This document shows positions 8,707-60,805 of a stretch of DNA of 64,000 nucleotides, piece after piece. This DNA comes from Amphiura filiformis. Taxonomy: Eukaryota; Echinodermata; Ophiuroidea; Amphilepidida; Amphiuridae. The notes under the pieces are model-generated. The model did not search any database. It was given only the letters and a program-made list of their open reading frames with translations, and had not been told where the DNA came from. A program made the position numbers and the translations under genes. How positions within the stretch are numbered: position 1 is the first letter of the stretch; the number at the start of each line of letters is the position of its first letter. The DNA is taken from assembly GCF_039555335.1 (NCBI RefSeq), contig NC_092628.1:32495727-32559726 (forward strand), given 5' to 3'.

Positions 8707-8756
8707 ACTGACGGTCCCTAACCTGAACTTTGATATTAATCCACAGTCCAAAGAAT

Positions 8757-9069
8757 ATGGAAGGTACTAAAGAATTTACACTTGTGGGTAAGATCCTCTC
8801 AGAAGCTTCTGGAGTTCTAAGCAAGACGTTACAACCTAAAGATATACTGCGGAGTCTCAAAGCTAAAAGTGCACTGACACCCGATGATGTTGAAATCATT
8901 GAAAATGAAGCAACTGATACAGACAAGGTGGATAAACTACTTGAGACTCTCAGGCGAAAACCCATCTCAGCTTACGCTACTTTTATGAAAGTTTTAGAGG
9001 AAGAGCGAGAAGATCTGTATGAAAAAGTCAAGGAAATAGAAGATAAATACAACTACAAGCGTAAGCCAG
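8757..9069 (+). CDS. CARD gene exon 1 (CARD domain)
   Basis: Codes for 104 residues plus one base (phase 1), with donor GTAAGA at 9070. It carries the whole CARD. The reading frame stays open upstream through the CCACAG acceptor, so Met at 8757 is the simplest but not the only start. Confidence 0.8.
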
Positions 9070-28620: not shown

Positions 28621-28797
28621 GTACAATGTGAATTTCGAACTACCATCGCAAACATGACAAAAAAGCCATCAAAATCTATCAACTTAAGGTAACAAAATGT
28701 ATCAATTTAAGGTGTATCAACTTAAACTTGAACTCAGATCCTTGTGCGTACTATTTTATACGTCTCTTGTCATTTGTACTCAATGTAGACACCAAAC

Positions 28798-28899
28798 ATG
28801 GATAAGGAGAGGAAGCATTTTGTGTTCGGAGAAATTGAATTTGAAGACGTTGAAAGGACCCGTGACCAATATGATCACCCGGAAGTAAACATACCCAAG
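28798..28899 (+). CDS. Channel exon 1
   Basis: 34 codons, phase 0 end before GTAAAG. 'FGEIEFE' matches the conserved TRPM 'GxIEFEG' segment that opens the N-terminal homology region. An acceptor-like CAATGTAG at 28788 would let the exon begin at 28789 in phase 0. Confidence 0.75.
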
Positions 28900-31800
28900 G
28901 TAAAGAAACATCCAAACACAAAACGTTTTAAAAACGTTTTTAAAGGTTATATTTTGGGTTTTTAGTTTTGTTAAAAATGTTCTAATAACATTAAATATCG
29001 GATTATATAGAGGTCAAGAAAACGTTGTAAAACGTTTCGTACAAAAGCGCCACAAACATGAGTTTACTTCATTTTGACTCAAACTGTAGAATGGGTCAAA
29101 TTTGTGCTGTGAGTAATCTTGTAGACGAAATAAAGAATTTAGTACGATGCAGCAAGTTAAGTTCGTGACTTAAATAGCTAATTAGCTAAGACTTGTTTTT
29201 TAAGTGGTTGTCATCTCAAGAATTCCAGACATTATTTTCTGTTATTGAAACTTTACTCCTTTATACATGTTATATACTGCGCCAACAAAGTATCCTTACA
29301 CTTGGAAAAAATAATTACAATTTCAAAACTGAACAATATTGGGGTAAATGTTGTTTTTTTAATAGATGCACTATCTAATCCTGCACATTATGACACCACA
29401 TTGAATCCAATGTGACCTCAAGAAGTAAAGTTACAAGCAATTGAATAGACGAAGGTCCAGTTTTAAAAGTGACAAACTGGCCTATTGTACAAGGCACAAA
29501 AAAGATTCCAACAAGCGCAACAAAGCGACAGCACAGTTTCTTCAATGAAGCATTATTTAAAGCAGTTTTATTTTAGTTTTTACTTCTCTGTACTTTTCAA
29601 AACTTTCATTTTATTTGTCAGTTCTTTTGTTTCAGTTTTCTTTTGTTCCTTTTGTTTTAACTTAAAGCCAAACGCATAAATTAGCCATTCACCACTCTCA
29701 AACCAGATGTCTAGTCTGTGGAGGTTTGAATAGGCCAGTTTGTCACTTTTAACATGTTTAAAACTGGACCTTCGTCTAATCAAATGCTTGTAACTTTGCT
29801 TCTTGAAGTCACATGGGATTCAATGTGGTGTCATAATGTGCAGGATATTGTGATTATTTTTCCAAGTGTAAGGATACTTTATTGGCGCAGTATATGTAGG
29901 GTGTGCACTATTTTCAGGAATAGCCCTGTATTTATTTTCTGGAATAGCCCATTCTTATTCCTAAAAGCTAAACATAACAGTGAAATTTTATAGAGAGTGG
30001 GACAAAAAGTGGTCGCCAAAAACAATGTAATAAAGAATAACGGTATTGTTTTTAGCCGCTGTCGTGCATCTATCGTCTCATATAACACGGGCGACATCAT
30101 TATTTTAAGTAAAACAACGAGGCAAAAAGCACTTCAATTCAAATAAAAAATAACAAAAGTATAAGGAATTACCTAGGGCTTAAAATTGATTGGTCCCGTT
30201 GTTGCTATGCGGCTCCGATTGGTTCAAACAGCGAGTACGTGTATCGCGTCGATGCGCATGCGCTGAACCGTGTTTTGTCCCACGGGTAAGAGCCAATAAT
30301 ATGGCAGAAACGTTTTCAAGTGTTTAAGAATTATCTACAAACTTTTCTCAGCAAAGTAATCTAACAATATCATACTGAGAAAGAATCTACTTTTATTTTT
30401 TTCAGGCAAAATCTCAGTTTGTAAAAGTGGATCCAGATTGCGATATCGGTGAACTCATAGAAGAAATCAAAACACACTGGAGCTTGGATCATCCCAATTT
30501 GCTCATTTCTGTACTGGGTGGCGCGTGGGATTTTCCTGTAAATGATGGAGTGAGAGACGTGTTACGTCAAGGCATCATCAAAACAACTGTTGGGACAAGT
30601 AAGTAAAATCATCAATTGCATCAGTTAAGGAAGATAATACTGCCACATTTTCAACGTCACTTGATTCTGCCTTCCCTGCTTCCTCCATGCAATATTGAAT
30701 AAACGTCACCCTGCTTCCCCCATGCAATATTGAATAAAGCCATATCAGTGACAGACCTCAGACCCTTTGAATATCCATTGATGTGTTGGGCTGGAGTGGA
30801 GAAGAGTGACATAAAGGGGATGTCTTTCAATGTTTATATATATCTTATTTAATTTGGGTGAATCAAACAAAAAGTCTGACGCTCTTCCGTGATGCCCAGG
30901 GTAGGGTGTAAAGACAACCATCAGACGATAAACAGAGATTTTAAACAAGTTCTCTCAACAAAATGTTTGACTTACTTGATATTTCATCCCACATCCGTGG
31001 GATTTCATCAGAAAGTGAGGTGGAGCGGTAAACACCTAGTCATGTGACCCACGGGGTAACCCGCGGTCACATGACTTGATGATCGGTGTGTAGATGCCAG
31101 ATAGCACGTGTCTCCCTTCTGTCAACCATCAGACGTCACCCAGAGTGTGATCATCTTGATGGAACTGGCCGCAAGATCTTTGTCATATGTCACCGCATCT
31201 GTCCCACAATTAAATACAGTAATCAGTGTACTTCGGTTATATATAAATTATAAATGCGCTTTTATAAATACGCGAGTGACCACCTCAGCGCTGCTATAAC
31301 AGCTTATAGACAGTAAGTCTCGAAGTAATACGTTCTTTAATCGTTCATTGTCATGTTAGTTGAAAATTGATGCCTTGACGTTATTTTCCAGCGGCCTGGA
31401 TTCTCACGAACGGCATTAACGTGGGAGTATCAAAATATGTGGCCAAAGCTGTGAAGAAATCGAAATTGGTCAGTAAATACTTGAGGAAGAAACCCACAGC
31501 TGTAGTAACCATAGGAATAGAATCACTGAGCAATGTCAGGACAAATCAACGGGTCAAGCTGAGAACAATAAGACGAGCAACTCTTGTAAGTACCAAGGTT
31601 TCAAGTAGTTTCTTCCTAGCACTACCAGCTTTTACCTAAACTCCTCAACAAAAGTTGAGTTGGAAAGTTTTTTCAAGCATCTATATCTCAGATTATTTGT
31701 GACATGTTCATAACGTGTTTCATATCAATGGATAGCTACATTATTTCCCTTTACAATGACACCACATTTAAAACAATCACTTTTGGGTTAAAATTGATCA

Positions 31801-34800
31801 ACTTTCACCATTGCAGACGTACAAGTTTTGTTGCGGATTGTACAAGTTTTGTTGCGGATGTACACATGTGAAAAATTCCAGTTTGTACGTCCACAACAAA
31901 AAGAAGACTTTTAGCAAGGTGGTTGAAGCTGGCAGTTTTGGGACTGAACGTCCGCAATAGAGGTCAATATTCTCTGATTTTCTTGAAATTGGCAGCAAAT
32001 TGCTCATCTACTCGTGTTGATTCAGATAAAGAATAGTTTGTATTAACTACATTGTCAAATGTCTGAGATATGATATAAAAATGATTATGTAGTTGACATA
32101 ATTATTAATTACAAAACTGCCCATCGTGAAATCACATCACATCACACATAACACTGATAACATCACATCACGTGACATAGATTCTTGTTTCTGTTATACA
32201 TGTACTTGAATAATATTGATTTGATTTATGAACCATAAAATGTAGCCCTATATCAGCACCGGAATCGATGACTTTTTTGCACTGCATGCCACTTTATACA
32301 CATTTGATTTGATTTGATTTGATTTGTTCGGGTTGTGACAACCCTGGATAACCCAAGAAAGCCTCTATTGAAGCTTATTTCCATTGGGGTCCTGTTGATT
32401 TAATCGCGATTTTATATGACGAATATACATTTTCCAGACTTCTTCCATGAATGATACCAAAGCAGAAACCAAAGGCCATCGTATCCTGGATCCCAATCAC
32501 ACTCATTTCATCCTGGTAGATGATTCCGGTGACCCTGCTGCTGAATCATCAACCAAACCTCTACACAATGTACGGGAGAACTTTGAAAAGGCGATGAACA
32601 AATGTAAGCTTGCTCGTTTTTGTGTGTCTGTCTGTATATTGGTCTACTTCTTGTTTTGCTTTGTTTTAGTTTGACTTGATCTTTATGTTTATCAACCTTT
32701 TTCGTAATATTGACCACTTCACTGCTGTTGGTGACGTTTTGTACTGCTAACTCCTATTAGGCCGGAGTTGGCGAAGCAGGAAACTGAAAGTGGGGCCAAA
32801 GATGTAAATGTAGTTGTCAAGGAATTATAAGGACTATCCAGCTGAGACTATAATATGTAGTACAAGTAAAATAGAAGTATATTAGTTTAGCATTTTGCTC
32901 ATTTTAATCTGCGTAATTAATTAGAGGTTATTAGAGTTCATTTTATTTTTTTCAAGGAATTAACCCTAATTAATTATGCAGATGAACCAAATCTGTATTC
33001 GCTTTAACCAACACATCTTAAAAACCAAAAATCGCATTTTAATCAAATAACTTTTATTTGTAGCCAAGATTTAAGAGTATAATCATGGAGAACTTCAATT
33101 TCCTGGCACGTACATTAACAGAGATGGAGGTAAAACTTTTGAATGACCCTCGTGCGTAAGCAAACACACTAGGCTATAGCATGGACATAAGAGATAAGAT
33201 CTACTATTCACGTTCAAATCCGAAATCAAGTGTTGTAAAATTGCTGTCTTTATCGTGTTTATAATACAGGTTGACTTAGACTCTTACTCCATCTAAACTA
33301 TCAATGACCGTGAATAGAATAATTCACATAAAATGACCCGTTTATACCACCAATTCTGTGAATCTGTACATCTATGTTTCAGACATGGGCGAAGCCTCCA
33401 TGACAGACTTAGATGATGTCATCAATGAAATACCTTCCAATGAGCACCGTGACTTCATTAAAGCCATGCGCCTCAGTTTTCCTGAAGAAGATGAAGAAGT
33501 TTGTGCATTAGACGTCTTAAAGTCTTGGAAGAAAGATCATGGCATGAATGCCACTCGAAGGACAATAGTTCAAGCATTGAAGAGAATGAAGAATAAACAG
33601 GTTGTGAAACAAATAGAAGAGAGATGGAAAGGTACGAAGAATGTTGTTTTTTAATCTTTGAGATATTGAATATTGTACTAGTACATGACTTTGACTTTGT
33701 ACTTGTCAATCTTGGAGAATTACAGGACCGTGCCTGATGGACAACACCATATCAGTTTAAACCAGGGAAGTGAGATACTCTTACCGTTTAAACAAAGGCA
33801 CTTCCATGATGGACCCTTGTCGGATGCGATGTGACATGAGCTCTTGAGAGGGTAGTCATCTTTTAAGATAATACAATATGCTTGCATTCAGTTATAGAGC
33901 AGTTTACAATGCAACCTGGTCATATTTCTTGTAAAAGGTGCGTTTTATAGTTTTCAAATCTGTTGTAACTCAGACTATTACCATCTCTTTAATTATCCCT
34001 GTCCAGATGGGCCAGTGCCAGTCGTTTGTATCTATATTGAAGGTGGACATCATACCATAGAACATGCTTGTAGAGCAGTACAGAATGGCATGCCAATTGT
34101 AGTGGTAAACCATTCAGGACGAGCGGCAAATTTGATGGCATTGGCGTACAAAAGTGACGGGTTAAAATGGTTTGTATATCAATTCCTCTGTCATGTCTGT
34201 AATATTGATTGTTACGATGGATACGAACTCGCTCTTGTCCAGGATTATAAAAATGAGTCACAAATAATGCTGGCCTATTCCATTTGAAATACATACACAC
34301 CTATGGAAGACATAACCTTAATGCCCCACAATGGGGGTGTCGTTTTAAATGGAGTCACCCATTCAGGTAGCCTCATTTGAAATTCTCACTCTCTGTGTTG
34401 AAGATTAATGCCATGTTTTCCATAAGGGGTGTATGGATTTCAGGAGGGAAAGCTCAAATATATAGAGGGCCTATGATCTCATAAAGCCGTAGTGTAGTGC
34501 ATAGCCTTTTTTATTAAAAATAATAGCACAAACCGCTTTGCCTTTTATTCCATTTGCTCCTGAGAAATACTATATGTCATACAAACTCGAACTTCCTTAG
34601 CTCAATGTGACTACAAATTTAGACGTACATATCCTAGGCTTATACACGTACTATAAAGAGTGTGCTTTCTTCGTTTTGCGATTATCGATCTGGGTTCACC
34701 CTGCATGGAAATGGGTTTTTAGGATGTTTAAGGGCTGGGGTATGAACGTTTGGACAGTATCTATTTTGGGACATTAGAGCACATCAGACATATCGAATTG

Positions 34801-37800
34801 CATTCTGAATACGAAGAATGTCATTCTGATATCAAATAATTTTGGTTTTTTGAAATTCGCAATTTAATACACATTTTATGGCAAATCATTAAAAATTGAT
34901 ATTTTTGATATTTAACAGTACTCGAAGTAAACTTTACAAATCTGATGATTTATACTTAACGTGTATGTAGGTGGGATGAAAAGCCGACGATCAATTGAAA
35001 ATTTTGACCTTTCGTATTGAAGATATGGATTTCTTTTTCCAAAACACCAAAAAAAATTAGGTCTTTTGGGGAAAAAAATCCATATCTTGAATATGAAAGG
35101 TCAAAATTTTCAATTGATCGTCGGCTTTTCCTCCCAGCTACATACACTTTACAAATATATCATTAGATTTATACAATTTACTTCGAGGACTGTTATATAT
35201 CAAAAATTTGAAAAATATCAAATTTTTATAATTTGTCATAAAATTTGTATTATATTGTGATTTTCAAAAATGAAAATTATTTGATATCAGAAAGACATGC
35301 TTCGTATTCAGAATGCAATTCGATAGGTCTGAGGTGCTCTCATGTCCCATAAAAAATACTGTCGAAATGCCATAAACGCTCATTCTAGATCCCTTAATTG
35401 AATGACAATAATTCTCATGAGAACGTTCAATGTTAATATGCATCATAGAAATATTTTATTTTTATTCCGATACACTATAATAATGGTTTTTTCTTTTTAA
35501 TCTCTCAGGGAGAATGAGAAATTGGAATATAAACTTCGGAGAATCACTCCCAAAGAGGTAGTTCAATCCGTATTAAAGTTAATCCAATCATCTCTAAGTG
35601 AGCATCGGAAACGAATCCTATGGCACATCTACGATGGGACTAATTCAAACCTAGAAATAGACCAAGTCATTCTCAAAGCTCTAATGCAAGGTAGGTGTTG
35701 TACATGATATATCCTGATATATTTGTTAGCAGTCTGGTCCAACTGCCTGACCAGGCAACACTCCCCGAGCAGGGAACCTTAATGCTCTGCATGCTAGCCA
35801 TGCGCTTCAATGGAAAAAGTTCAAGTTTTGAAATATTTTCTCAAAATATCAAGAGCTATCTTAAGAACTACTGAATCAATACTAGGCTTGTTTGTACTCA
35901 TTTTAATGCATTTTTCATGCTGATTCCAAATATGGTCATGAAAATTTACATTTCTGAAATTTTTGAATTTTGACATTTTTTTGAAACTTGTCGTCTGCAG
36001 TCGACACCCGCGTGAAGAGAGTTAAGATACTTATTCTATGGAACACATTGCACAGTTTTCCAGTTCAGTAGTTTAGAGAAGTAGTCAAGTGACCATTCAC
36101 ACTCAGTTACACTCAGCACAGTGTTGCTCACTATGCAGCCTTTCCGCCCATGGAGGGACGGGAAACGGATTCCGTTCAGTGTACCATGCGAGTTGCAATT
36201 GCTGGTTACAATTACAAATTATCCTCAGCTATCGTTAGACCCTGGTAGGAATCCCAGCACAGTTAAGACACTAGAAATGCCAACATAAATCAACAAAAAA
36301 CATTATTTAAACAAATGTTAAAAAAATTAAAAAAACGGAAATCGTATACTTTGATCTGTTCTAGCATTCTAGCTACATTTCCAAACAAATATCACATTTT
36401 TCTTAAAATTCCTGTATAAATGATTCTCAACACTACACAGACATTATCCTCGAACAATTATAGCAATTAAGTACAATACGTAAGTTATACAAATACGTAG
36501 ATGTATAGTTTTTATTTATTTTGTCCATAAGTACTTTGGCACTTGACACCATATGTAACGAAAGACTTGTTAGCAACAAAATGTAAAAGTAAAAGTGGTT
36601 ACGAGCAGTCGTTTCGTTACCTGAAGTCGTGTCTTAGAGTGAAGTGTATTGTACGCACTTGCAATATTTGTGTGTTGCGTTGCTATTGCTCCTTGATGTC
36701 TGCAATCTTGCTCTGTTGTTTCTTCTCCATTAGATCCTTGAACATTTTGAACGTTAAGCCTTTTTTGCAGCTCTATTACGAAGTCTTTTCGACATCTTTT
36801 ATTGAGCACGAATATACGAAACGGTGAAACTGTTGAACAGAAAGATAATAATCAATGTTCCTAGTGATAGAAAACTAGCAATGCCATATATAACGATTGG
36901 AAACTCTTTATTTGATTCTCCTGGGGTAAAACCTGTACCATGAGCGAAAAGGTACAATATGATGAGTTTTGTACTCCACAGCTGCAATGACATAGCGAAT
37001 CTGTTACGCAGAGATTGTCTGCGCATTTTGTTGAAGCTACACATAGCAATAAGACCACCTAGAAGCACCGTAAAAAGCTCCAAGTGTCGAAGTAAATAGT
37101 TCGATTCACTGGCACCAATGTTATCAATATAGCAGCGCGAATAAAGCCATGAAAATAATCAGCACAATATATCTGCAACGGCTAGAGTTAGTAATACTAT
37201 CACCGTATTAGTTTTATGCGTCCGAATGTGATGAGAATAAGAGTGTTAGCTGGTACGCCGGTGAGAAAAATGATGCAGTCGTATGCAATATAGATGATAT
37301 CTTTCGTCCTCATTTTCCAAGGGAACCGAGAAGCACAAATCAATAGGTGCGTATAGCATTAAAGCGTATGTATTGTATTATACATGAAGGCACATCACAT
37401 TAATTCGTCACTTCAAGTTTCTTTAAACCGCAACAAGTGAAATTACGAAATGAAAAAAGCTTCTTCCTAAAATTTCAGTTGATTCCTATTTTGTGTTTGC
37501 GAGTTATGCATGATTATGTGTATACTGCTCCGTAGACAACGTGTTGTAATGTCGTACTGATGCACCAGAACGTAATTCAAATTTCACAATATTTTTGCTA
37601 AATGAATTAATCTGCAAGAAATTGTTTGTAAATAAACATCATGCAGCCAGAGGTGTCCAGTGACATGAAAATATTAACCTTTTTGAGAAAAGTGGTCGAT
37701 AATACTGGGGATCTCGAAATGCCCTTTTAAAATCTAGATGAGAAGAAATATTGATTATGCGGAAAAGGAGAGTGTCAAGTTTAATTTGCTATATAGTTAA

Positions 37801-49800: not shown

Positions 49801-52800
49801 AATCGCAATCAACTGAAATTTTGGAAATAAGCATTTTTCGTGGATATCTGCTGAAAAATGTCATGAAAAGAGGATGCTAGAATCACGAAATCCTCCTTTA
49901 AGTCTTCGCGTCATTCATGTCATTGGATCTGCATTAATGTTTGATTTATTTTCCGTTCATTATGGACAATGATATGATGGACTCACCAGCCGCTAATGAC
50001 GAGTATGGACTGCAATGTTGTTTTCAAGATTATAACAAATCAAGTTAGTGGGCAATGATCACTCGCTCGTCGGTAGCGGCCAAGCTATTAGACCTAATTT
50101 ATAACACTTATAGTTAAAATTATGATCGTATAAAGTGTTGTATTAGTTTTGTTCCCGGGTTTTATTGTCCTCGGATTTTTGAAAATGTTATAGTTAATGA
50201 AACAAAAGAACTTCTAATGTATTTTTTGAATATGCTTTTAGATATTACAATATCTAATTATTTGCTTGTACCCTAGTTTGTAGACCTGGTGTTTTTCTTG
50301 AGTATCCTATTCATCATCTTACTGGGCTACGGTATAGCTGTCCATTCTATTCAGTTTCCAAAAGATACAGACGCAGCATCGTTAGTAGCAGGGATTTTAT
50401 ATAGGCCATATTTCCAGATATATGGAGAACTTTTTATAGAAGGCAGGTCAGGTAAGTATTATTTTTTGTCCTTTAATGTAACCCCGATGTAACCATTTGG
50501 TTTTCAGAATTGATCTTCCGTGATGCCCTAGACATTGGTGTAAACCAGCGGGGTGGGTCCAGTCACTTAGGCACCATATCAAATTTGGTCCTATAGAACT
50601 ATCGATGCCCGGTTAGGTACCGATGACTCTTAGCATCACTCCCTGGAGATATAATAAATTGTATCAAGCATAATAATTAACAGTGGCACAGTGTAATTGT
50701 TTTTCATTTAAATAAAACACAAAAGCACTAAGCAAATGTTCAGGGAAAGAAGTGCCATCTGTACCTCTTTCGTCACCGATAGCGCTATAGGGCCAAAAAT
50801 GATGTTGTGCCTTAATGCAGACTGTTTTAAATAAGCCATATTGACAATGATCCGTCAGATTTGTAGGTAACACAGCTTGCCGCATTTCTGGTGATCGAAA
50901 GACTGAATTCACAAGTATCATCAGGGATATGAGACATATCCCTGGTATCATTCATATTTCAGTAACAATTGTTTCTTTTTTTTAACTCAGTGCTCGATCC
51001 TGACGACAGTTGCAGTACCAATCAAACAGAAATAGAACTTGGAGCAGATCGGTGTCCAGAACATGGTCACATCGCACTAATCTCTCTGGGTTTATATATG
51101 ATGATTAGCAATGTGTTACTTCTGAACCTACTAATTGCTACATTCAGGTAAATATATTTATTACTCTGTATGTTTGTTGAGTGTGTGGTGATGCATGGGG
51201 TGGGTGGGTGTGGGTGGTTGTTATAAACGTTAGTTCTTTCCACCATATGGTATACATTTTGCATGACAAGTGCATCTAGACCTGATATAACAACAGATAT
51301 CTTCATATTTTAATTCTAGTAACACTTTTGAAACGGTACAAGAAGAAACTGACTTGCATTGGAAGTTCCATTCTTATGCCCTCACAAAGGAGTTCTTCCA
51401 GCGCCCTGATCTGATGCCTCCCTTGATTATCATTACTGATATCTACCGCTTTATAATTTGGATCATGCGCAAAGTCGGTGTGTACCGATTCCAATGGAGA
51501 CCTGAAAAGATACGTAAGTTCAACAATGCCTAAAATGGTGGATTTAAGGGCTGGGGTATGAACGTTTGGACAGTATTTATTTTGGGACATTAGAGCACAT
51601 CAGACATATCGAATTGCATTCTGAATACGAAGAATGTCATTCTGATATCAAATAATTTTGATTTTTGAAATTCGCAATATAATACACATTTTATGGCAAA
51701 TCACATTAAAAATTGATATTTTGATATTTAACAGTACTTGAAGTAAACTTTATAAATCTGATGATTTATACTTAAAGTGTATGTAGGTGGGATGAAAAGC
51801 CGACGATCAATTGAAAATTTTGACCTTTCGTATTGAAGATATGGATTTTTTTTCCCAAAACACCAAAAAAATTAGGTCTTTTGGGAAAGAAATCCATATC
51901 TTCAATATGAAAGGTCAAAATTCAATTCTCATATTCGCAATAAGGGCGCCGCCAACGGATTTTTTGATGTATCATGGGAAAAATCGTGATGTATCATGGG
52001 AAAAGGTCGACATCAAGTCCGCGCAATACGAATATTACCATGCTATTACATAGGAACACGTGACAATATTTTTAGTTGGTCAATATAACGGTATTACACG
52101 CAAATCGATAGAGAAAAAATTAATTGTGCACATTTCAAATCACATTATTAAGTATTATTGAGTATCGATTCGCGTGTAACACCTTTATTTTGACAAACTA
52201 AAAAATATTGTCACGTGTTCCTATGTAATAGCATGGTAATATTCGTATTGCGCGGACTTGATGTCGACCTTTTCCCATGATACATCACGATTTTTCCCAT
52301 GATACATCGCAAACCGCTGGCGGCGCCCTTATTGCGAATAGCGAGAATTGACCGTCGGCTTTTCCTCCCTGCTACATACACTTTAAGAATATATCATTAG
52401 ATTTATATAATTTACTTCGAGGACTGTTATATATCAAAATTTGAAAAATATCAAATTTTTATAATTTGTCATAAAATTTGTATTATATTGTGATTTTAAA
52501 AATGAAAATTATTTGATATCAGAAAGACATGCTTCGTATTCAGAATGCAATTCGATAGGTCTGAGGTGCTCTCATGTCCCATAAAAAATACTGTCGAAAC
52601 GCAATAAACGCTCATTTTGGATCCCTTAAGGAGATTGAATTTGAGCTTTTCTGGGGGGGGGGGGAGATCACTACCAATTTCAGTTATTCTCAAGTTTTAA
52701 CCATTATCTTAAAATAATTAATTAAACAGTTCTTAAAATAAGAATGCAGTATAAACGCTTACTTTATTGGACTTTTCAAGAAGAGCGATATAGTAGGCCT

Positions 52801-55800
52801 GCTCTCTTCCTCGTCCAGATGACAGTAACCGTCGCGTAGGTGACTCAAGTAGATCAGTTCACATGTATTGTATATTCGTTGTATATTCATTTTTTTTAAA
52901 TCGCGCAGCAACCAACGGCTGAATTGCACGACATTTCCATAATTATTTAAAACACTCAAATACTAAAAACATGAAAATCAATATGTAGGCTACATATTAA
53001 CCCTCGAACTACGTTGCGTCATGAAAAAACGCACACGTTCATGACGTTTGCGCCCAAACGACTTAAGCTAATCGTAGATGCATCCTTTGCGCTCATTTTA
53101 GTGATAAAAGTGTTACCTCAGCACCTTATGCGGGGTAGGACCGGCCATCAAAGATGACCATAGAGGGGGTGAGGCCCCAATGATTTTCATTTCGCTCTTG
53201 TGAAATTATTCCAAGAGCTAATGACGTTTTACTCGTTAGTTTGGTGAAAATAGTCATTTCCTTTTATATTTAGGACATAATTTGGTGAAAATCGCATTTT
53301 TATAGAATTTTTAACCGAAAATCAATTTTGCCTAGATACTTTTGTGCATAACCAGAATTTCCCAAATTTACATTGGCGCCCTCACATTATGACGTCATAG
53401 CGATATTATGTGGGGAATGTTTGTACTTGATTTGGTATCACTGGATAAAGGAGACCCATAGCTATAGTACCTAATAATATAAACGGTATATGACGTTTAT
53501 AATTGAAAATTAGGGGGTTGGTTGCAACAATCCCCTCCCCCTTCGTAGTCCGTATTACAAAATATGGCTCGGTAGTGGTTAAAGAGTTGCACTTGACTGG
53601 AATTGACACAATATTACAAATGACCGGCAAGACAATTGCTTGGAGGAGGTTGGTACATCATCTGGCTGAGAAGAGAAAATCTAGCCCAAAATATAAAGTA
53701 TGTTTCAAGTACTTGATTTGTCGTGAAGAACTAAAGACTGCACAAAAAGTAACGCAGCTGTTATAAATACGCCTATAGCTTCAGAACCAATAATGGTTTT
53801 CACCATATTGCAACATAGAAAGAAGGTTGATTTATTTGCGCGCATTTTGATACCACATTCGTCCAATTTCGTTCAATATTAACAACACGGCAGTGTTTAA
53901 AAAAAAACGAATTTAAAAGTTCCAGCTACTTGTATTGATTTGAAGTAAGCGCGAAGATAATGGAGGGTTTTACGTGTCACAATGCTTGCGTAATAACCAT
54001 TGATCGCAGTGCAACTTTTAAATTCGGGTATTCTTCTTTAAAATCACTACTGCGTTGTTAATATTGAACGATATTTGACAAATGGGGTATATCACAATTC
54101 TTTCTCTGTTGAAATATTGTGAAAACAGTTATTAGTTCTGAAGCTATAGTCTTATTTATAACAGCTGCGTTACTTTTTGTGCAGACTTTATTTGCTTAAT
54201 CCTCGTGGACTGATCTCACATGTTTATCTCACTTTGTTTGACATAATGTGCTTTATCCGTGAATCTTTCTATCTATTGAAGACCGAATTAAAAAGACTAG
54301 TTTGCATATGACGTTTTGTCAACCAGACCAAAAATGCCGTACTGCGCAAGTCATTAACCAATCACGCCGCGCCTTTGCCCTGATGTCAGACGCAAACTAG
54401 TCTTTTTAATTCTGTCTTCAATTATAGATTCTAGTTTATTTAAGGTGTAGGTGATGGCAGCCATTTTTTTAAAGTTTTGGCCATTTTATTAAAACACATA
54501 TGCTTCCCTTCAAAATGAGTCAAGGAAGCAATAAAATCACAAATATGGAAAATTTACAAGAAAATTCCACCTTTTTTATTTACCTGTAGAGAGGAAATAT
54601 AGCCGTGAGGAGGACGAGAGGCTGGTCAAATTGGCAGAATTAGTTGCTCACCGATACGTCTCACAAGCACGGCGATTGCATCAAAAAGATGCTTGTCCGT
54701 GTTGTCAATTTACTGAAATGAGGTAGGCCATATAAAACAGCGAAATATTTAATATGTCTCATTCTTAGGTACTTTGTCCTGAAAAAGTCAGAATTACTCC
54801 TGACGAAAGCTTGACAATTCTAAACTTGCCCGACGGCGAGCCCGCCTAGCTATCCTAGAATTTAGAGATGATTGATCCCAGGACCTCCAATCATGATGAC
54901 TGTCTATAAAGGACGGGAGAAAGGGTATTTCACTTCATGAAATAAAATATGATATATGTACTTGAATAAGCATTGGGATGGATCTTATGCGTCCCTTCTT
55001 GTTTTTGATAATGTGGTTATTAATGTTTTTATTCTCACCCATTACTTGTAGTAAAAGAAGAATTTTTGTTCGGCTAAATGAGTTTGATCATCTCACTGAT
55101 AAGGTTAGTTAATTTGCTTAAGATATTTCTCGTTTAAACTTTAGAATGCTTTAAGCGCTTGTTTATTTCAAAATCCTTCATGTCCTTGTTCGATGTTTTT
55201 TAAGTGAGATGTTATTAGCATCATTTCGAAAAACTTCTTTTCATATCAATCACTTTAAATGATTAAATACACATAACGATCCGACGCCATGTAAAAATCG
55301 TGAACATTCAACATGTATGGTGAACGGTCGAAGTTTTAGTGTTATAAACATCGTTTTGTCCGTTTCTGGCCTGGACCGTTTGTCATGTTTGTGGTGTGAA
55401 GTTGCAGCAAAAAAAACTATATAAACCGATAATTCTTGACACTGGTGTGTTATATATAGATAAGAGTGTAATGGTTGTGGTTCATTTGGTGTTAGTTAAG
55501 GTTTGGGTAAAGGCATGTGATTACTCGAGCCATGACTGACAATTAAGCTATGCGTATACCCAACGACAACGTCAGATCTCAGAGGCAAATACATTACATA
55601 TTACTAATTATTCAAAGGGAAGACGTGATAAACCACTAAATAGGCTACGATTTCAAATAATATCGAATCGAGCTCGGATGCCCTATTTTTTAATGCTTTC
55701 AACAATTTCAACAATATTGTTTTATTGTAATCATTTTCCAGAATAATCTACAGAATGAACAAGTATCAAATACATTGGAAAAGTCAGGAAAGTGGAGCGA

Positions 55801-58800
55801 AAACAAGTTAACCGTAGAACTTGTTTGTGAAGAGGAGGGTCAGGGTTTCGGATTTAGTATCAAAGAGCTGAAGGTATGTATTTAATTGATTTGTATTTTT
55901 TTCCGAGGTTTTGTTCCCAATTGGCGTTTGCGCAGAGGAAAATTGGGACAAAATTTGAGAATGGGTAGAGCCCTATGAACATCCATCCCACCCGAGTCAC
56001 CGCCACCTCGTCTTTATGTAGTCGAATTCGAATGCTTTCTGAAAAAGAAATGGCATATAGGCTATAGCTTGTATCTTTAAGATGGATTGGCCCAGTTCTC
56101 TGGGGTCTGGTTAAAGTATTCTACCTTTACTTTCTTCCTTCCTTTACCTAAGAAAGGTGATACCAGAGAATGTGCCAAAAATCGTACATGTATCTTTCAT
56201 CTCCCACACCAGCAAGGTATTGCTTCATTATCATTGCTGAACGAATTCGGAACCATCTAGAAAGAGAGTTACCACCAGAACAGGCAGGTTTCAGGAAAGG
56301 AAGAGGAACGAAAAACCAGATCGGCAACCTGAGGATTCTAATGGAGAAAAACATGGAGTTCCAGCAACCTCTGTTTCTCTGCTTCAGAGACTACTCCAAG
56401 GCCTTTGATTGCGTCCAGCATGAAAAGTGATGGCGCATCAAGAAGGAAATGGGATTCTCTGCACATGTGGTGGACTCATCTAATCTTTGTACCAAGGACA
56501 GAAAGCCACAGTAAGAACTGAGTGTGTAGACTCAGACTGGTTTACAACGACCAAGGAGTACGTCAGGGATGTATTTTATCACCCTATCTTTTTTAACATC
56601 TATGCAGAGTATATTATGAGATTTGCACTTGATGGATACTACGGAATGGTATAAATCGGAGGTAGTCGAATAAATAACGTTAGGTACGCTGATGATATCA
56701 CCCTCATTGGAAGGACAGCAAAACTGAACTTCAAGACCAAGTGAACATGGTAAAGGAAGCTAGTGAGGAGTAAGGACTGTTCCTTAATGTCAAAAAGACA
56801 AAGGTCATGATTTGTGGAGGGAAAACAGACCAGCAGTTAAAGGCTGATAGAGAGGACATAGAGATGGTTAAATATTTTCAACTTCCTTGGAATGAATGAA
56901 TCTTTATGAATGAATCTTTATTTCCATAATAAAAAACAACAAAATACAAAGAAATTCAACATCAAAAAAATAAAACAAGACAATTATGGAGGAGATGATC
57001 GAAAGGCCAATAAGGCCAGCATTGACCATCCCCTTACAGAACTAAATTAATACAACAACAAACAGAGTATATTAAGCCTATCACACAAGAACAAAAATGG
57101 GGCACCAAGAACTAGTTGTAAAATGAGATTAGCTGTGTTTTATATTTGTTTCGAAAATGTTTGATTGAGTTTGCTACTTTAAGGTTATCGTTCAGGGAAT
57201 TCCATAACAGTGGGCCGGTAGTCCTGATTGAATGATCAGTGAATACTTTCTTGTTTTTTGTTTGATTATACTTATTACTGTTTCTTGTGTGATAGCTATG
57301 AATATCGGATCGTTTTAGAAAGAAACTGTCAAATGAACATGGCAGTTGCTTAATAGAATATTTATACATGTATACACCTAGTTCTAGTTTGAATATATCA
57401 TATACATTGAGCATATTGAATTTATGAAATAGTGGTCCAGAATGGCTTCGATAATGGCTATTTGAAATGATTCTCATGGCCCATTTTTGGAGCAAATGTA
57501 TTTTATCAAGATATGTTTTACATGCATTCCCCCATGTAAGTATACCATAATTAATATTATAATATAATATCATAATTAAGACAAGCGTACAATAAAGCGT
57601 GTGCAAAACACGCCCAGGTATAAAAAATTTCAACTTGTTTATCATACCTATATTCCGTGAGATTGTTTTTGAGATTCCGTTGATATGGTTTTTCCATGTG
57701 AGATTTTCATCGATAATTACACCTAAAAATTTGGTTTCGGTTACCCTTTGCAAGTCACTCATTGTTGACGAAGGAGGCAGCGGTCAAGAAATCTGCTATT
57801 GCTCTTACCGACATTAGGAAAGACAGAGGAGTTTTTAGAGCAACCAAAATAAGCATCATGAATGCCCTGGTCTTTCCAATTGCTATAAATGGCTCTGAAA
57901 CATGGGCAGGGCCGGATTTACCATAGGGCCAGATGGGCCCGGGCCCAGGGCCCCCAGATTGCCCTGTGCAGTGTGCATCTTCCATTTTAGCCGAAAACAC
58001 CATGTTTTGGGTCAAAATAGGGTACACAAATAATTGCAAAATTTTGCGCGCTTCGCGCACAAAATGGCCTGTGTACAGCTTCAATTTGGGCCAAAATGAC
58101 CTAAAATTGATTTTTTCGCGCGCTTCGCGCGCAAATGTCCTAGTGCAATCTAAAAAGTGGCACATGCCTTCCTCACGGTGCGTTTGGGGCCTCCAAATTT
58201 TGGCCTGGCCCAGGGCCCCCAAAAGGTAAATCCGGCCCTGAACATGGGCCGTCGGAAGGGCAGACAGATCCATGAATTCAAGTTTTTGAAATGTGGTGCT
58301 GGCGAAAGATGCTGAGAATGTCATGGAAAGATCACAAAACAAATGAATTTGTCAGAAGACAACTTGGTGAGCATGTCAAATGTTCAGTCTGCCAGAAAAT
58401 TGATCACAATAAATTGCAGTGATTTTGGTCACATCTTAAGAAGAAATGGTGACAAGTTGGAGAAAATAATAGTTCAGGGTCAAGTTGAAAGACTTCGCAG
58501 AAGAGGCAGACAGAAGCTCCAGACAGATGGAATCAAAGAATCCACTGGACTATTCCTTACTATTTATTTATTTATTTATTTATTAGACTTCATCACTGGT
58601 ACATATATAATTATTGCACATCCAAATTTTAACAAATAAAAATATAAAAGCTTTTTTTTTTAAAAAAAACATGTTAAAAGGCCAGCGAATAGGCTGGGAT
58701 AAACAGGTGTAAATTCACCTCTAGAACCATCTCACCTAGGAAAGACCTAAATAATTTGGACAAAAGAATGGAATGCCAGAGGCAAGACCTTAAATGGGCC

Positions 58801-60805
58801 TACCATTAGGGCACCGGCAAGTAGAAAACCAAGTGCAGGTATCAGAAGGAACAAATTTGGAATAACATTGAGACTTCAAAAATGCTTGATATTTGAAAGA
58901 AGAAATGGAATTGGATAATCTGGTTTCCAGGGGCAGCTGGTTCCACAAGGGAACAATGCGGTTGAAGTATGATTGTTTGTGGGATTCAGTCTTACACCTC
59001 TGAAAAGATAACATAATAGGATCCGCAGAGAGCCTAGTAGTGGGATGGTTCTGTTGGTTTTTACTTTTAAAAACAACAAATTTATCTACATCTAAATCAT
59101 ATTGCCCCAACTTGCATCTATGATCTAAGATCACCGAGTTCCCTTCTGGATGATAGTGGAAGAAGGTCAAGACTGGTTAACCGCTCTTTATAGTCCTTGT
59201 CAGGATAGTGCATAATGAATTTGGTAGCCCGTCTTTGGACATCTTGAATAAGCTGGACATTTTGTTTTGAAGTCCCGCTCCAAAGACAGCTACCATACTC
59301 AAGGTCACTCCTGACAAGGGCAGTATAAAGAGTCTTAGTCACTTACGAATGCTTACCGTCTTGCATTGGACAGGCAGAGTTGGAACAACATCATCAAAAG
59401 GGCCACAACGGGTCAGTCAACGACTTTCATTCATGGAGGACTATCACCAAAACAATCTGTTACAGTCCTTCGATATGGATTTACTGATTTAGAAGCAAAA
59501 GCGTATCCAATGGCCCATCGAACAGTATGGATGGTATACCACGTGGTGAGACCCGCAGTACTTTTGTTTTCAACCCCTCTAAAGTAAACTTTATTTTGGC
59601 TGGGGTTACGAGGAATATATTAGCTTTCTTCAAATACCAAAATCTTTGAATTTTGATAGAGTATTGAGGCTATGAATTAGGTCACCAATCTTTACCTGCA
59701 CATTTTCCATGTTTTTAGCATTTGTGTGTGGAAGTGAAAGTGCAGTAAAACCCGGGAGTAAAACATCTCGTACTTTTTCTCCAGATTTTAATAGATTCCT
59801 CGCAAGAAATTGAGACCGTGAATGTGATTGGGGGTCTAATCCCTGGTGGTGTGGCAGGACAAGATGGCCGACTTACGGCAGGTGATAAACTTATATCCGT
59901 CAATGGAATCAATATAGAACACAGTACGAGAGAGTTTGGTGTCCAAGTGCTGAAGAATGCCGGGAACAAGATTGACATTGTCGTGACGAAGATGCGTACT
60001 GAAGACAATGATGAGGTAAGAAGATATTTAAATGTCAGCACTTTAAATCTTACAAGATCGGCCTATTTGCTCTCCGTGTGGAATCAGACCCACATTCTTT
60101 GCGATTTGGTGCCCAAGAAAAACATATGACTAGAGATGAGTTTGTTACTTTTTGCTTACATTAGGCCTAACCAAGAAAACAAAAGCAAAATATCTAAAAG
60201 CAATTTCACCCCAAAATCAACGATAGACAAACCATTCCGAAATTAAATTTGTATATGAAAATTTACTAGGGCTTGACCATGTTGACTATCTTGATATTCA
60301 CGACTAAATGATGTGTATGTTGCATTTAGAATACAAAGCAGGTCCTTCTGATATCAAATAATTTTTCCTTTTTTGAAATTCGAGATATATACAAATTTTA
60401 TGGTAAATTATTAACAAATGACATTTCAAACATTTCACAGTCCTCAAAACAGTCCTATAAATATAATGACACGACGGTAACTGGGGTGAAAAGCCGTCCA
60501 TCAATTGACAATTTTGACCTTTCGTATTGAAATGCCAACATTTTTCATTTCTAATAATTTGCCATAAAATTCGTATTATATCTCGAATTTCAAAAAAATC
60601 AAAATTGTTTGATATCAGAAGGATTCAGAATGTAATTTGATGTGTCTGATATGCTCTCAGATCCCACAAAAAAGACTGTGCAAAAAAGTGGGTGACCGAC
60701 TGACCGACCCCTAAAAGATATACCGTAATTCATAAAATTCAGTTGTATTATTTGGATTTTCATTACCATTGTACTTTTTTGTTTTTATTTCAGATATTTG
60801 TGTAG
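28798..60805 (+). CDS. TRPM-family channel with inserted Death domain and C-terminal PDZ, 25 exons, 1,243 aa
   Basis: Exons: 28798-28899, 30406-30598, 31392-31585, 32438-32603, 33383-33631, 34007-34169, 35509-35690, 42093-42202, 42580-42732, 43116-43220, 43784-43919, 44394-44583, 45515-45746, 45927-45958, 46806-46869, 47909-48043, 48682-48921, 50277-50451, 50991-51147, 51320-51513, 54590-54722, 55052-55103, 55742-55873, 59785-60015, 60794-60805. All introns are GT-AG except one GC-AG, and every junction keeps frame. Domains: SLOG/LSDAT ~11-218 and ~302-415, Death domain 219-301 inside it, TRPM helical repeats ~416-735, S1-S6 ~750-993, TRP helix ~994-1057, linker, PDZ ~1141-1232, tail IFV. TRPM channels are tetrameric plasma- or intracellular-membrane cation channels; the Death domain suggests coupling to death-fold adaptors and the PDZ to a scaffold (inference). 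No coiled coil, Nudix or alpha-kinase domain is present. Start: an in-frame TAG lies four codons upstream, but a TAG acceptor ends there too, so the Met could be internal. Confidence 0.85.
30406..30598 (+). CDS. Channel exon 2 (SLOG, first strands)
   Basis: Residues 35-98. 'HPNLLISVLGGAWDF' is the TRPM 'PxLLISVxGGxxNF' signature. It ends phase 1 before GTAAGT. Confidence 0.92.
31392..31585 (+). CDS. Channel exon 3 (SLOG, nucleotide-loop region)
   Basis: Residues 99-163. 'AWILTNGINVGVSKYV' corresponds to the family's 'AWIxTGGxNxGVxxxV'; the first Gly of the GG pair is replaced by Asn105. The rest is unusually basic. Phase 0 end before GTAAGT. Confidence 0.92.
32438..32603 (+). CDS. Channel exon 4 (SLOG, 'HTHFILVDD' strand)
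   Basis: Residues 164-218. 'LDPNHTHFILVDD' is a near-exact TRPM motif, followed by 'VRENFEKAMNK' in place of the usual 'xRxxLEKxIS' helix. It ends phase 1 before GTAAGC. Confidence 0.92.
33383..33631 (+). CDS. Channel exon 5: Death domain on a symmetric exon
   Basis: Exactly 83 codons with phase 1 at both ends (CAG acceptor, GTACGA donor), residues 219-301. 'DVLKSWKKDHGMNATRRTIV' and 'ALKRMKNKQVVKQIEERW' match helices 4-6 of Death domains, including the core Trp (267) and the Trp/Leu helix 5-6 spacing. Helices 1-3 are short ('DDVINEIP', 'HRDFIKAMRLS'). TRPM proteins normally run from the exon 4 helix directly into the exon 6 strand, so this exon interrupts the SLOG fold; its removal would restore a standard TRPM in frame. 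Confidence 0.88.
34007..34169 (+). CDS. Channel exon 6 (SLOG, 'EGG...SGRAA' strands)
   Basis: Residues 302-355. 'VVCIYIEGGHHTIEHA' and 'PIVVVNHSGRAANLMALA' align with TRPM 'VxxxxEGGPxT' and 'PVVVxxGSGRAADxxA'. The Gly before Ser and the Asp after AA are replaced (His337, Asn343). It ends phase 2 before GTTTGT. Confidence 0.9.
34729..35396. mobile_element. Foldback element, family P, copy 1 (intron 6)
   Basis: Left end TTAAGGGCTGGGGTATGAACG, right end CTAGATCCCTTAA. The two arms are complementary through 'GATATCAAATAATTTT' and an inner 'CAATTGAAAATTTTGACCTT' palindrome. Related copies: 51544-52628 and a divergent one at 60263-60712. Confidence 0.75.
35509..35690 (+). CDS. Channel exon 7
   Basis: Residues 356-416. 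'SLSEHRKRILWHIYDG' then 'IDQVILKALMQ' matches the TRPM 'KxxITVF...ExxxDIDxAILxALLK' helix that leads into the helical repeats. It ends phase 1 before GTAGGT; a 6.4-kb intron follows. Confidence 0.85.
36487..37460 (-). pseudogene. Second, decayed GPCR copy (intron 7, antisense)
   Basis: Nearly identical to the copy at 38177-39690 over TM1 (GVPANTLILITFG), TM3-TM5 and the start of TM6, but it lacks about 67 bp after TM3's start, breaks off after TM6 with a stop, and has no TM7 or tail. It is a partial tandem duplicate. Confidence 0.7.
37482..37731. mobile_element. MITE, TTAAAGGGGCATTTCG family, copy 2
   Basis: The right end is 'CTCGAAATGCCCTTTTAA', and it shares 'GAATTAATCTGCAAG' with the copies at 18387 and 49559. 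It separates the two GPCR copies. Confidence 0.5.
38177..39547 (-). pseudogene. Rhodopsin-class GPCR, intronless, two frameshifts (intron 7, antisense)
   Basis: From Met at 39547: TM1 'GVPANTLILITFGRR' (Asn1.50), TM2 'LLTLAGADLLCC' (Asp2.50), TM3 after 'WMCKLMALSL' (Cys3.25), TM4, TM5 'IVIYGIASFLTLGTLII', a 70-residue third loop, TM6 'RLLVTTFTFAFLLLT', TM7 'RLNHIVNAFIYF' (an NPxxY variant) and a ~115-residue Pro/Glu-rich tail. One base is missing near 39229 (a T run, shown by the sister copy) and one A is extra near 38650; both lie in homopolymers. The DRY motif is replaced (around 'CSFNKMR'). Either a young pseudogene or a gene with assembly errors. The ligand is unknown. Confidence 0.75.
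39734..42092. other. Rest of intron 7, no gene seen
   Basis: AT-rich; short open frames lack splice signals or motifs. A (CA)n run lies at 41817-41836. Confidence 0.5.
42093..42202 (+). CDS. Channel exon 8
   Basis: Residues 417-453. 'QLNLAQTWNRHDIVRTQLF' is the conserved TRPM 'LxLALAWNRxDIAxxxIF' block. It ends phase 0 before GTACGC. Confidence 0.92.
42580..42732 (+). CDS. Channel exon 9
   Basis: Residues 454-504. 'TVIVNNKPGFVRLYLGNGA' and 'YLTRRVLTQLY' match the ankyrin-like TRPM 'ALVxxRxEFVxLxLENG...FLTxxxLxxLY'. Phase 0. Confidence 0.92.
43116..43220 (+). CDS. Channel exon 10 (Cys-rich insert)
   Basis: Residues 505-539. It is not clearly alignable to TRPMs; it ends 'PTCSPCCNTDT', a CxxCC cluster. 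Phase 0 on both sides with good CTAAATATAG/GTAAGT sites. Confidence 0.7.
43784..43919 (+). CDS. Channel exon 11 (variable linker)
   Basis: Residues 540-584. Acidic Asn/Asp-rich start, then 'GLKKIGDTIQSLTS'. It corresponds in position to the variable TRPM linker. It ends phase 1 before GTAAGG. Confidence 0.7.
44394..44583 (+). CDS. Channel exon 12
   Basis: Residues 585-647. 'HHLFLFAVLNGFHEMAEYFW' and 'HIATALVAREIYLGMA' match TRPM 'xxLxxWAVLxxRxxMAxxxW...AxALVAxKxxxxMA'. It ends phase 2 before GTACAA. Confidence 0.92.
45005..45392. mobile_element. TIR element carrying three histone-type stem-loops (intron 12)
   Basis: 'AATTAGTAAGTTTTAGCGG' at about 45007 is matched inverted at about 45373-45392. 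Inside, GGCTCTGAAAAGAGCC (the histone 3' hairpin read on the minus strand) occurs at 45095-45110, 45193-45209 (one extra A in the loop) and 45258-45273, each with histone-like flanks (minus strand AAC before, mostly ACCAC after). The right flank 'CTCCTGACGAAAGCTTGACA' recurs near 54798. A tRNA-like B box (GGTTCGAGCCC, 44671) lies just upstream. Confidence 0.7.
45515..45746 (+). CDS. Channel exon 13
   Basis: Residues 648-725. 'YEELACKILEQCRKDHDKD' and 'GGTTCLKLAESTESRRFIAH' then 'VQSLVNEVWRHGL' follow the TRPM 'YExxAxxxLxxCYxxDE...TCLxLAxxAxxxxFIAHxxxQxxLxxxWxG' block. Phase 0 end. Confidence 0.93.
45927..45958 (+). CDS. Channel exon 14 (short, GC donor)
   Basis: Eleven residues (DHGSGTANIKR, last codon split, phase 2). 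The donor is AAAAAG|GCAAGT, the standard context of GC-AG introns; the frame into exon 15 is only kept if this GC site is used. Confidence 0.65.
46806..46869 (+). CDS. Channel exon 15 (pre-S1)
   Basis: Residues ~736-757. 'VWTAPRTTFAFNV' aligns with TRPM 'FYxAPxxKFWxNT' directly before S1. Phase 2 in, phase 0 out before GTATTA. Confidence 0.8.
47909..48043 (+). CDS. Channel exon 16 (S1-S2)
   Basis: Residues 758-802. S1 'ILLLALFSYILL', then 'TPSWWEVLLIIWVGTILIEE', the TRPM S2 'PSxxEWxxxxxxxTLxxEExR'. Phase 0 both sides. Confidence 0.93.
48251..48428. repeat. Inverted repeat (intron 16)
   Basis: 'TTCGCCAGCGAAGTGGTTACGT' is matched inverted by 'ACGTAACCCTTCGCTGGTGAA'. Small MITE-like hairpin. 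Confidence 0.5.
48682..48921 (+). CDS. Channel exon 17 (S3-S4)
   Basis: Residues 803-882. 'YIEDYWNKIDVIMLNLFVV' (S3), 'LLLALDLFFFYFRQLHVFTI' (S4) and 'LGPKVIMVFKM' (S4-S5 linker) follow TRPM exactly in order. Phase 0 both sides. Confidence 0.95.
49122..49540. mobile_element. Foldback element (intron 17)
   Basis: 'CAGTTGAGTCGAGTCAATCT' and 'GACAAAGTGCTAACATGTTTG' are matched inverted at 49460-49540; the centre carries 'CAAGTCATTCGAGTCAC' and its complement. Confidence 0.6.
49559..49901. mobile_element. MITE, TTAAAGGGGCATTTCG family, copy 3 (intron 17)
   Basis: Left end AAAGGGGCATTTCGTGATCC; right end with AATCACGAAATCCTCCTTTAA. It contains GCAGATTAATTCG, inverted relative to copies 1 and 2. 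Confidence 0.65.
50277..50451 (+). CDS. Channel exon 18 (S5 and pore helix)
   Basis: Residues 883-940. S5 'LVFFLSILFIILLGYGIA', then 'AGILYRPYFQIYGELF', the TRPM pore helix. The filter position reads Y-G-E (Glu933), as in TRPM1/3/6/7, rather than F-G-Q of TRPM2/4/5/8. It ends phase 1 before GTAAGT; a weaker donor 5 nt earlier would break the frame. Confidence 0.93.
50991..51147 (+). CDS. Channel exon 19 (outer pore and S6)
   Basis: Residues 941-992. Acidic outer-pore loop 'DPDDSCSTNQTEIELG' with Cys947 and Cys962, which could form the pore-loop disulphide of TRPMs, an NQT sequon, and S6 'SNVLLLNLLIATF' (family 'xNILLLNLLIAxF'). It ends phase 2. Confidence 0.94.
51320..51513 (+). CDS. Channel exon 20 (TRP helix)
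   Basis: Residues 993-1057. 'NTFETVQEETDLHWKFH' and 'RPDLMPPLIIITDIYRFI' match TRPM 'xTFxxVQxxxxxxWKFQ...RPxxPPPxIxxxHI'. It ends phase 1. Confidence 0.94.
51544..52628. mobile_element. Foldback element, family P, copy 2 with a nested palindrome (intron 20)
   Basis: The same ends as 34729-35396 (TTAAGGGCTGGGGTATGAACG ... GGATCCCTTAA). A second palindrome, about 51930-52350 ('CGCAATAAGGGCGCC' and complement), is inserted at its centre. Confidence 0.75.
53733..54189. mobile_element. Foldback element (intron 20)
   Basis: 'AAAGACTGCACAAAAAGTAA' and 'CGCAGCTGTTATAAAT' at the left are matched inverted at 54155-54189. Confidence 0.7.
54275..54423. mobile_element. MITE, ~149 bp (intron 20)
   Basis: The ends ATTGAAGACCGAATTAAAAA and, inverted, TTTTTAATTCTGTCTTCAAT form 28-bp terminal repeats. 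Confidence 0.7.
54590..54722 (+). CDS. Channel exon 21 (post-TRP helix, CPCC motif)
   Basis: Residues 1058-1101. 'LVKLAELVAHRYVSQARR' corresponds to the TRPM helix 'xxxWExxxxExYL'; it is followed by 'KDACPCCQFTEM', a second CPCC-type cluster. Phase 2 end before GTAGGC. Confidence 0.82.
55052..55103 (+). CDS. Channel exon 22
   Basis: Residues 1102-1119 (RRIFVRLNEFDHLTDK). Short, phase 2 in and phase 0 out before GTTAGT. Confidence 0.65.
55742..55873 (+). CDS. Channel exon 23 (PDZ, first half)
   Basis: Residues 1120-1163. 'LTVELVCEEEGQGFGFSI' is a PDZ beta-A strand, the carboxylate-binding GFGF loop and beta-B. Phase 0 end before GTATGT. Confidence 0.85.
56897..57760 (-). mobile_element. LINE 3' fragment inserted in the host LINE
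   Basis: 216-codon open frame 57762-57112 with 'ETKFLGVIIDENLTWKNHI', 'YGILTWGNACKTYL' and 'LQKWAMRIISNSHY', the C-terminal region of CR1/Jockey-type LINE proteins. The 3' end is a run of 'AAAGATTCATTC'-like units near 56897. It is 5'-truncated and unbroken in this part, hence fairly recent. Confidence 0.8.
57905..58240. mobile_element. MITE inserted in the host LINE
   Basis: 'CAGGGCCGGATTTACC' at the left and 'GGTAAATCCGGCCCTG' at the right are inverted ends; next to them 'GGGCCCGGGCCCAGGGCCCC' and its inverted counterpart. It includes 'CGCGCTTCGCGCG' motifs. Confidence 0.75.
58556..59344 (-). mobile_element. Second LINE 3' fragment inserted in the host LINE
   Basis: Minus-strand frames carry 'YTALVRSDLEYGSCLWSG' and 'IQDVQRRATKFIMHYPDKD', then 'SYFNRIVPLWNQLPLETR', the usual C-terminus of CR1-like RT proteins. 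The 3' end is (TTTA)n at 58559-58583. One frameshift separates the two blocks. Confidence 0.75.
59785..60015 (+). CDS. Channel exon 24 (PDZ, second half)
   Basis: Residues 1164-1240. 'PGGVAGQDGRLTAGDKLISV' and 'NGINIEHSTREFGVQVLKNA' are the PDZ 'GxAxxDGRLxxGDxLLxVNG' core and helix B, ending in strand 'KIDIVVTKM'. Phase 0 end before GTAAGA. Confidence 0.92.
60263..60712. mobile_element. Foldback element, family P, divergent copy 3 (intron 24)
   Basis: It shares 'CTTCTGATATCAAATAATTTT' and its inverted match near 60600-60625 with copies 1 and 2, but differs at both ends. Confidence 0.55.
60794..60805 (+). CDS. Channel exon 25 (C-terminal Ile-Phe-Val and stop)
   Basis: Phase 0 after TTTATTTCAG; codes for I-F-V then TAG. 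If this exon is skipped, exon 24 would read through to a different, longer tail ending at 60126. An AATAAA at 61453 is the first polyadenylation-type signal seen downstream. Confidence 0.55.
   Translation: MFV

Follow-up and report, generated by a model that had tools for sequence, protein, structure and literature searches.

A TRPM-type channel gene of the brittle star Amphiura filiformis very probably carries a Death domain inside its SLOG (MHR1/2) domain and probably ends in a PDZ domain. The gene lies in a 64,000-nucleotide stretch of contig NC_092628.1 (assembly GCF_039555335.1, positions 32,495,727 to 32,559,726), hereafter the window, whose own numbering is used below. Its product is an NCBI 'TRPM5-like' protein of 1260 aa (P0001), every residue of which is encoded by the window in 26 exons (26121-60805, 0 mismatches). 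The original prediction, made from the DNA letters alone, had proposed 25 exons and 1,243 codons; its frame was right, but exon 1 and the first three codons of exon 2 had been missed (1260 - 17 = 1243).

Profile searches and alignment recovered every part that the prediction had named: TRPM SLOG, helical repeats, S1-S6, TRP helix, Death domain and C-terminal PDZ. P0001 matched the Pfam models for SLOG (PF18139, 4.4e-43), TRPM2-like (PF25508, 4.6e-37), Ion_trans (PF00520, 4.7e-18) and PDZ (PF00595, 1.3e-9), and the Death model (PF00531) was matched at 3.1e-5 when its exon was scored alone. S2-S6 and the TRP helix align with those of TRPMs, and in a PDB sequence search the draft protein matched TRPM5 best, followed by TRPM2. 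NCBIfam returned the general trp model only, under its cut-off. Judged by the features tested (SLOG, MHR3/4, pore domain and TRP helix), the predicted product is a TRPM.

A very probable Death domain within the SLOG loop

The Death exon (exon 6) interrupts the SLOG loop between the helix bearing the equivalent of human TRPM2 R302 and the next beta strand, its insert beginning about 10 residues past that arginine. The exon is symmetric (phase 1-1), and the SLOG frame stays open when it is skipped in silico. Two further sequences carry a Death-like insert at the same site: P0002, an A. filiformis paralogue, and P0003, an 'lgn' sequence of 1141 aa on a 3,658-base contig. Since 3,658 bases are too short for such introns, we infer that P0003 is a transcript; it may itself come from A. 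filiformis. An AlphaFold2 model of P0002 (62 sequences; predicted local distance difference test, pLDDT, 82.2) places the insert helices at 219-304, between a helix at 192-212 and a strand at 312-316; a loop within the insert, at 243-263, is disordered.

Scored alone, exon 6 passes the Death cut-off (24.5 bits against 22.6), and three further Pfam families match at E 0.0047-0.093, all under their own cut-offs. As a chance control, eight shuffled inserts were scanned, and none of them gave a Pfam match at E<=1. Among the isolated inserts of P0001-P0003, two of three exceed the Death cut-off; that of P0003 also matches a colicin-immunity family at 0.013, under cut-off. The AlphaFold2 model of the exon-6 domain reached a pLDDT of 80.5, and its top structural matches belong to the death superfamily, including PDB Fas/FADD.

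Two results weigh against this assignment: in the whole-protein scan the Death match of P0001 falls to 0.0011 and 19.4 bits, under the cut-off, and a Foldseek search with the Death model gave no match at E 0.001. The lack of a single significant fold match, together with a Pfam match confined to the C-terminal half of the model (48-84 of 86), would also suit a structural spacer or an unrelated helical bundle. So would low conservation, the insert being among the least conserved parts of P0001 (identity 25/78 to P0002 and 25/81 to P0003). The N-terminus is similarly variable (7/22 and 7/23), and the second SLOG part is 37/55 identical to both. However, the death-superfamily structural matches and the Pfam scores of the isolated inserts argue against a mere spacer, as does the lower identity (12/72) to the unrelated F5/8 insert of another A. 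filiformis TRPM, P0004. We consider the spacer a poor bet, and conclude that exon 6 very probably encodes a Death domain.

A protein search with the Death region returned P0001 alone (1 of 14 candidates); the method depends on five-residue words in common and did not pick up even P0002 or P0003. Mis-annotation of the Death exon was rejected given the same-site inserts in P0002 and P0003, and the idea that the Death domain had replaced SLOG was rejected because SLOG continues on either side.

Recurrent insertion into the SLOG loop

Across a 120-row alignment, the SLOG segment is enlarged in five rows. It spans 126-141 residues and is Death-like in P0001-P0003; in the A. filiformis TRPMs P0004 and P0007 it spans 187 and 182 residues, respectively, and holds an F5/8-type C domain. 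The other 115 rows have 0 residues (P0041, P0055 and P0104), 7 residues (P0018) or 26-52 residues (111 rows). F5/8-type C (discoidin) domains are usually extracellular, yet here they occupy a cytosolic SLOG loop.

Phylogenetic trees were built from 49 and 29 of the 120 rows after sparsely occupied columns, the insert included, had been removed. Both grouped the Death proteins P0001-P0003 (Shimodaira-Hasegawa-like approximate likelihood ratio test, SH-aLRT, 100 with 49 rows; 100/99 with 29 rows) and the F5/8 proteins P0004 and P0007 (99; 100/99), while the branching order among P0001, P0002 and P0003 was weakly supported (80/43). The fewest changes of insert state on the tree number two. This topology indicates a single gain of the Death insert, predating the split of P0001, P0002 and P0003, and a separate F5/8 insertion. 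A. filiformis is named for 12 of the 120 rows, and its TRPM rows are a local expansion.

Another A. filiformis TRPM, P0019, has three N-terminal Methyltransf_FA (PF12248) stretches and no Pfam SLOG match; it nevertheless belongs to the 111 rows with 26-52 residues at the SLOG-loop position.

The C-terminal PDZ domain and its junction

The PDZ domain itself is genuine. PF00595 scores 38.8 bits against a cut-off of 23.2, exon 24 encodes a GxGF-type carboxylate loop (GQGFGFSI), and at E<=0.001 the region has 209 matching PDB sequences, among which PSD-95 (Disks large homolog 4) and InaD-like PDZs rank first. A protein search with the PDZ region kept 52 rows from 784 candidates, in which P0001 was the sole TRPM, the others being inaD-like, Patj, lap4 and unnamed PDZ proteins.

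The splice signals joining PDZ to channel are strong. Only 0.5% of decoys score higher than the intron-23 donor, which follows the last conserved TRPM codon, and 0.3% score higher than the phase-0 exon-24 acceptor, by a splice score trained on the other junctions of P0001, some of which score poorly. Against the fusion stands the fact that the TRPM-PDZ join is present in one gene model only, P0001. The PDZ exons could thus be a separate small gene fused by annotation, the TRPM ending near 55111, a doubt that touches the PDZ alone. Consistent with this, P0002 and P0003 end directly after their exon-23 equivalent, reading on past the exon-23 donor leads through DKVS to a stop, a poly(A)-like signal (AATAAA or ATTAAA) lies at 55262, and no other TRPM with a PDZ appears among the homologue and PDZ-region search rows. 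A separate gene would, however, leave the strong donor and in-phase acceptor to be accounted for, and would require a hidden first exon, as exon 24 has no in-frame ATG after the upstream stop at 55691. We regard it as unlikely, and the PDZ junction as probably real. The C-terminal fusion put forward in the original prediction is therefore upheld for the domain and its splice signals, with the junction resting on a single gene model.

Because read-through gives DKVS-stop with that poly(A)-like signal, a short form ending like the paralogues is also possible. The tail of the long form, EIFV, resembles what we take to be a class II PDZ ligand, and self-association through this tail and the cis PDZ is conceivable.

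Between the two PDZ exons, the intron contains a reverse-transcriptase fragment (56161-56427, + strand), which matches RVT_1 at 6.1e-6 and 26.5 bits, under its cut-off of 29.6.

Channel core and ligand-site residues

The AlphaFold2 model of P0002 shows the post-TRP helices, and all 50 Foldseek matches listed, of 618, are TRPMs. Alignment indicates that P0001 retains E816, Q819, N838 and D841, which we take to be the E, Q, N and D of the TRPM Ca2+ site in S2-S3. Channel function looks kept, because S2-S6, pore, TRP helix and Ca2+ site all align with functional TRPMs. A transmembrane-domain Ca2+ site is described in the available text of PMC6759353.

Positions Y295, R302, R304 and R358 were placed by counting along human TRPM2 in the PDB alignment, which recovered the expected motifs. 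The equivalents of R302 (R226) and R358 (R357) are retained in P0001, and those of Y295 and R304 are lost. In MHR1/2 of TRPM2, Y295 clamps ADP-ribose (ADPR), R358 meets its phosphates and R302 its ribose, and binding shuts the MHR1/2 clamshell (PMC6759353, text available in part). According to the available portion of PMC6914804, a sea anemone channel binds ADPR at its N-terminus with NUDT9-H dispensable, and human TRPM2 R304A+R358A abolishes ADPR activation; an earlier study cited there found human R302A+R358A to be without effect, which opposes a simple reading. Given the loss of the Y295 equivalent, the ligand may be other than ADPR, or absent.

No Nudix-type Pfam match was found in P0001 at E<=1, and PF25969, given for two fish TRPM2 rows (P0059, P0092), is absent from its listed domains. 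As NUDT9-H was not found, P0001 was not classed as TRPM2, and a canonical TRPM2 identity was rejected.

Proposed mechanism

We lean, with some reserve, towards a Death-domain input that acts through the SLOG clamshell on a Ca2+-primed, PDZ-anchored TRPM channel as the best overall explanation. Subunits would assemble as a TRPM tetramer, primed by Ca2+ at the S2-S3 site. Opening would still be governed by the SLOG clamshell beside the Death domain, which would respond to a nucleotide that is not canonical ADPR or solely to protein contact. The clamshell would be shifted when a death-fold partner binds or when channels cluster by way of their Death domains, and open probability, and thereby cation entry, would change. 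The cis PDZ would hold the channel in a membrane scaffold, and skipping of exon 6 would yield a channel without Death input.

The gating role of the Death domain, also proposed in the original prediction, fits this anatomy, although we put it at somewhat short of an even chance. No result here connected the gene with immunity or cell death, which that prediction had tentatively suggested. The same anatomy, with the Death domain directly after the R302 helix, would serve a channel working as a sensor, in which nucleotide and Ca2+ move the clamshell, the Death domain is exposed and nucleates a death-fold complex, and ion flow is secondary. Death domains often assemble complexes, as in PDB Fas/FADD. 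The alignment of S2-S6, pore, TRP helix and Ca2+ site with functional TRPMs speaks against so minor a part for ion flow, and we hold this sensor role to be improbable; the gating role is preferred over it.

Gene structure and other features of the window

The introns of P0001 follow GT-AG in 24 of 25 cases and GC-AG in one (45958/46806); exon coordinates are given in Table 1. A tandem TRPM copy in the window was considered and rejected, since tblastn with 120 homologues (E<=1e-3) gave no further copy.

Table 1. Exons of the TRPM5-like gene (P0001), in window coordinates
Feature	Coordinates	Strand	Content	Basis
Exon 1	26121-26162	+	Start codon, MELQDITHNSSLDE	Exact P0001 match, GT-AG junction
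Exons 2-5	28789-28899, 30406-30598, 31392-31585, 32438-32603	+	N-terminus, SLOG/MHR1-2 first part; include P0001 R226 (human TRPM2 R302 equivalent)	Pfam PF18139, P0001 55-234
Exon 6	33383-33631	+	Very probable Death domain within SLOG loop; 249 bp, phase 1-1	
Exon 7	34007-34169	+	SLOG second part; P0001 R357 (human TRPM2 R358 equivalent)	
Exons 8-14	35509-45746 (35509-35690, 42093-42202, 42580-42732, 43116-43220, 43784-43919, 44394-44583, 45515-45746)	+	MHR3/4 helical region	Pfam PF25508, P0001 471-723
Exons 15-19	45927-50451 (45927-45958, 46806-46869, 47909-48043, 48682-48921, 50277-50451)	+	S1-S5 and pore start	Pfam PF00520, P0001 773-1020; alignment
Exons 20-21	50991-51147, 51320-51513	+	Remaining pore, S6, TRP helix	Alignment
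Exons 22-23	54590-54722, 55052-55103	+	Post-TRP helices	
Exon 24	55742-55873	+	Linker, PDZ first part (GFGF carboxylate loop)	Pfam PF00595, P0001 1168-1247
Exon 25	59785-60015	+	PDZ remainder	Pfam, PDB PDZ matches
Exon 26	60794-60805	+	Four codons: IFV and stop (60805); tail EIFV	

About 17 kb upstream of channel exon 1, on the same strand, an open reading frame (8730-9077, +) encodes a CARD (PF00619, 3.5e-10), also of the death superfamily and not linked here to the channel gene; a PDB search with this exon gave no match. Intron 8 holds a tandem duplication (36515-37460 and 38647-39689) with a spacing of about 2.1-2.2 kb and blocks that are 80-98% identical; it overlaps antisense open reading frames that have membrane-like stretches and no confident family.

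Comparison with known channels and implications

P0001 shares with TRPM2 (TRPM-beta clade) the SLOG/MHR1-2, MHR3/4, S1-S6, TRP helix, Ca2+ site and R302 and R358 equivalents, but differs in having no detected NUDT9-H and no Y295 or R304 equivalents, and in its SLOG-loop Death and C-terminal PDZ domains. It resembles TRPM4/TRPM5 in its best PDB matches (TRPM5) and in the absence of NUDT9-H from both. In contrast to P0001, two vertebrate TRPM4/5 rows have no R358 equivalent (SGG, TGG) and a pore reading FGQ; the P0001 pore reads YGE (YGEL), a glutamate that hints at divalent permeability. No Death or PDZ domain is listed for these two rows. In P0004 and P0007, too, this SLOG loop holds a foreign domain, but one of discoidin type and inserted separately on the tree.

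We know of no Death or PDZ domain in the TRPM family and, to our knowledge, TRPM6/7 have no SLOG insert. Drosophila TRP is anchored by INAD, a PDZ scaffold on a separate protein. The TRPM6/7 chanzymes parallel P0001 as TRPMs that acquired a further domain through fusion, in their case an alpha-kinase (PMC13143021, text available in part). PDZ-based TRP anchoring is also found in TRPV5/6 with NHERF2/4, where, as far as the available text of PMC12799467 goes, the PDZ is on the partner protein rather than in cis.

The available part of an evolutionary survey lists NUDT9-H and alpha-kinase among TRPM domain gains; it mentions neither PDZ nor Amphiura, its sole 'death' is unrelated, and its species table has Asterias and Strongylocentrotus as echinoderms (PMC13143021). 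The A. filiformis genome paper (PMC11310086) mentions no TRP channel, transient receptor, death domain or PDZ. In keeping with the original prediction, which knew of no such case, a TRPM with its own Death or PDZ domain was found nowhere in the open literature searched, in so far as its text was available (including PMC13143021, PMC11310086, PMC8195603 and PMC12799467).

If the Death domain does lie in the ligand-sensing domain, it would provide a direct link, within one polypeptide, from death-fold signalling to a cation channel. Tentatively, the SLOG loop of brittle-star TRPMs might act as a plug-in socket for interaction modules beside the nucleotide pocket, with death-fold assembly opening or clustering the PDZ-anchored channel as a signalling hub. 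The inserts suggest a tolerated insertion site in the TRPM SLOG that would be usable for engineering. Two unrelated domains at one site would also make a natural experiment, one that bears on how new inputs can be accommodated by the TRPM clamshell.
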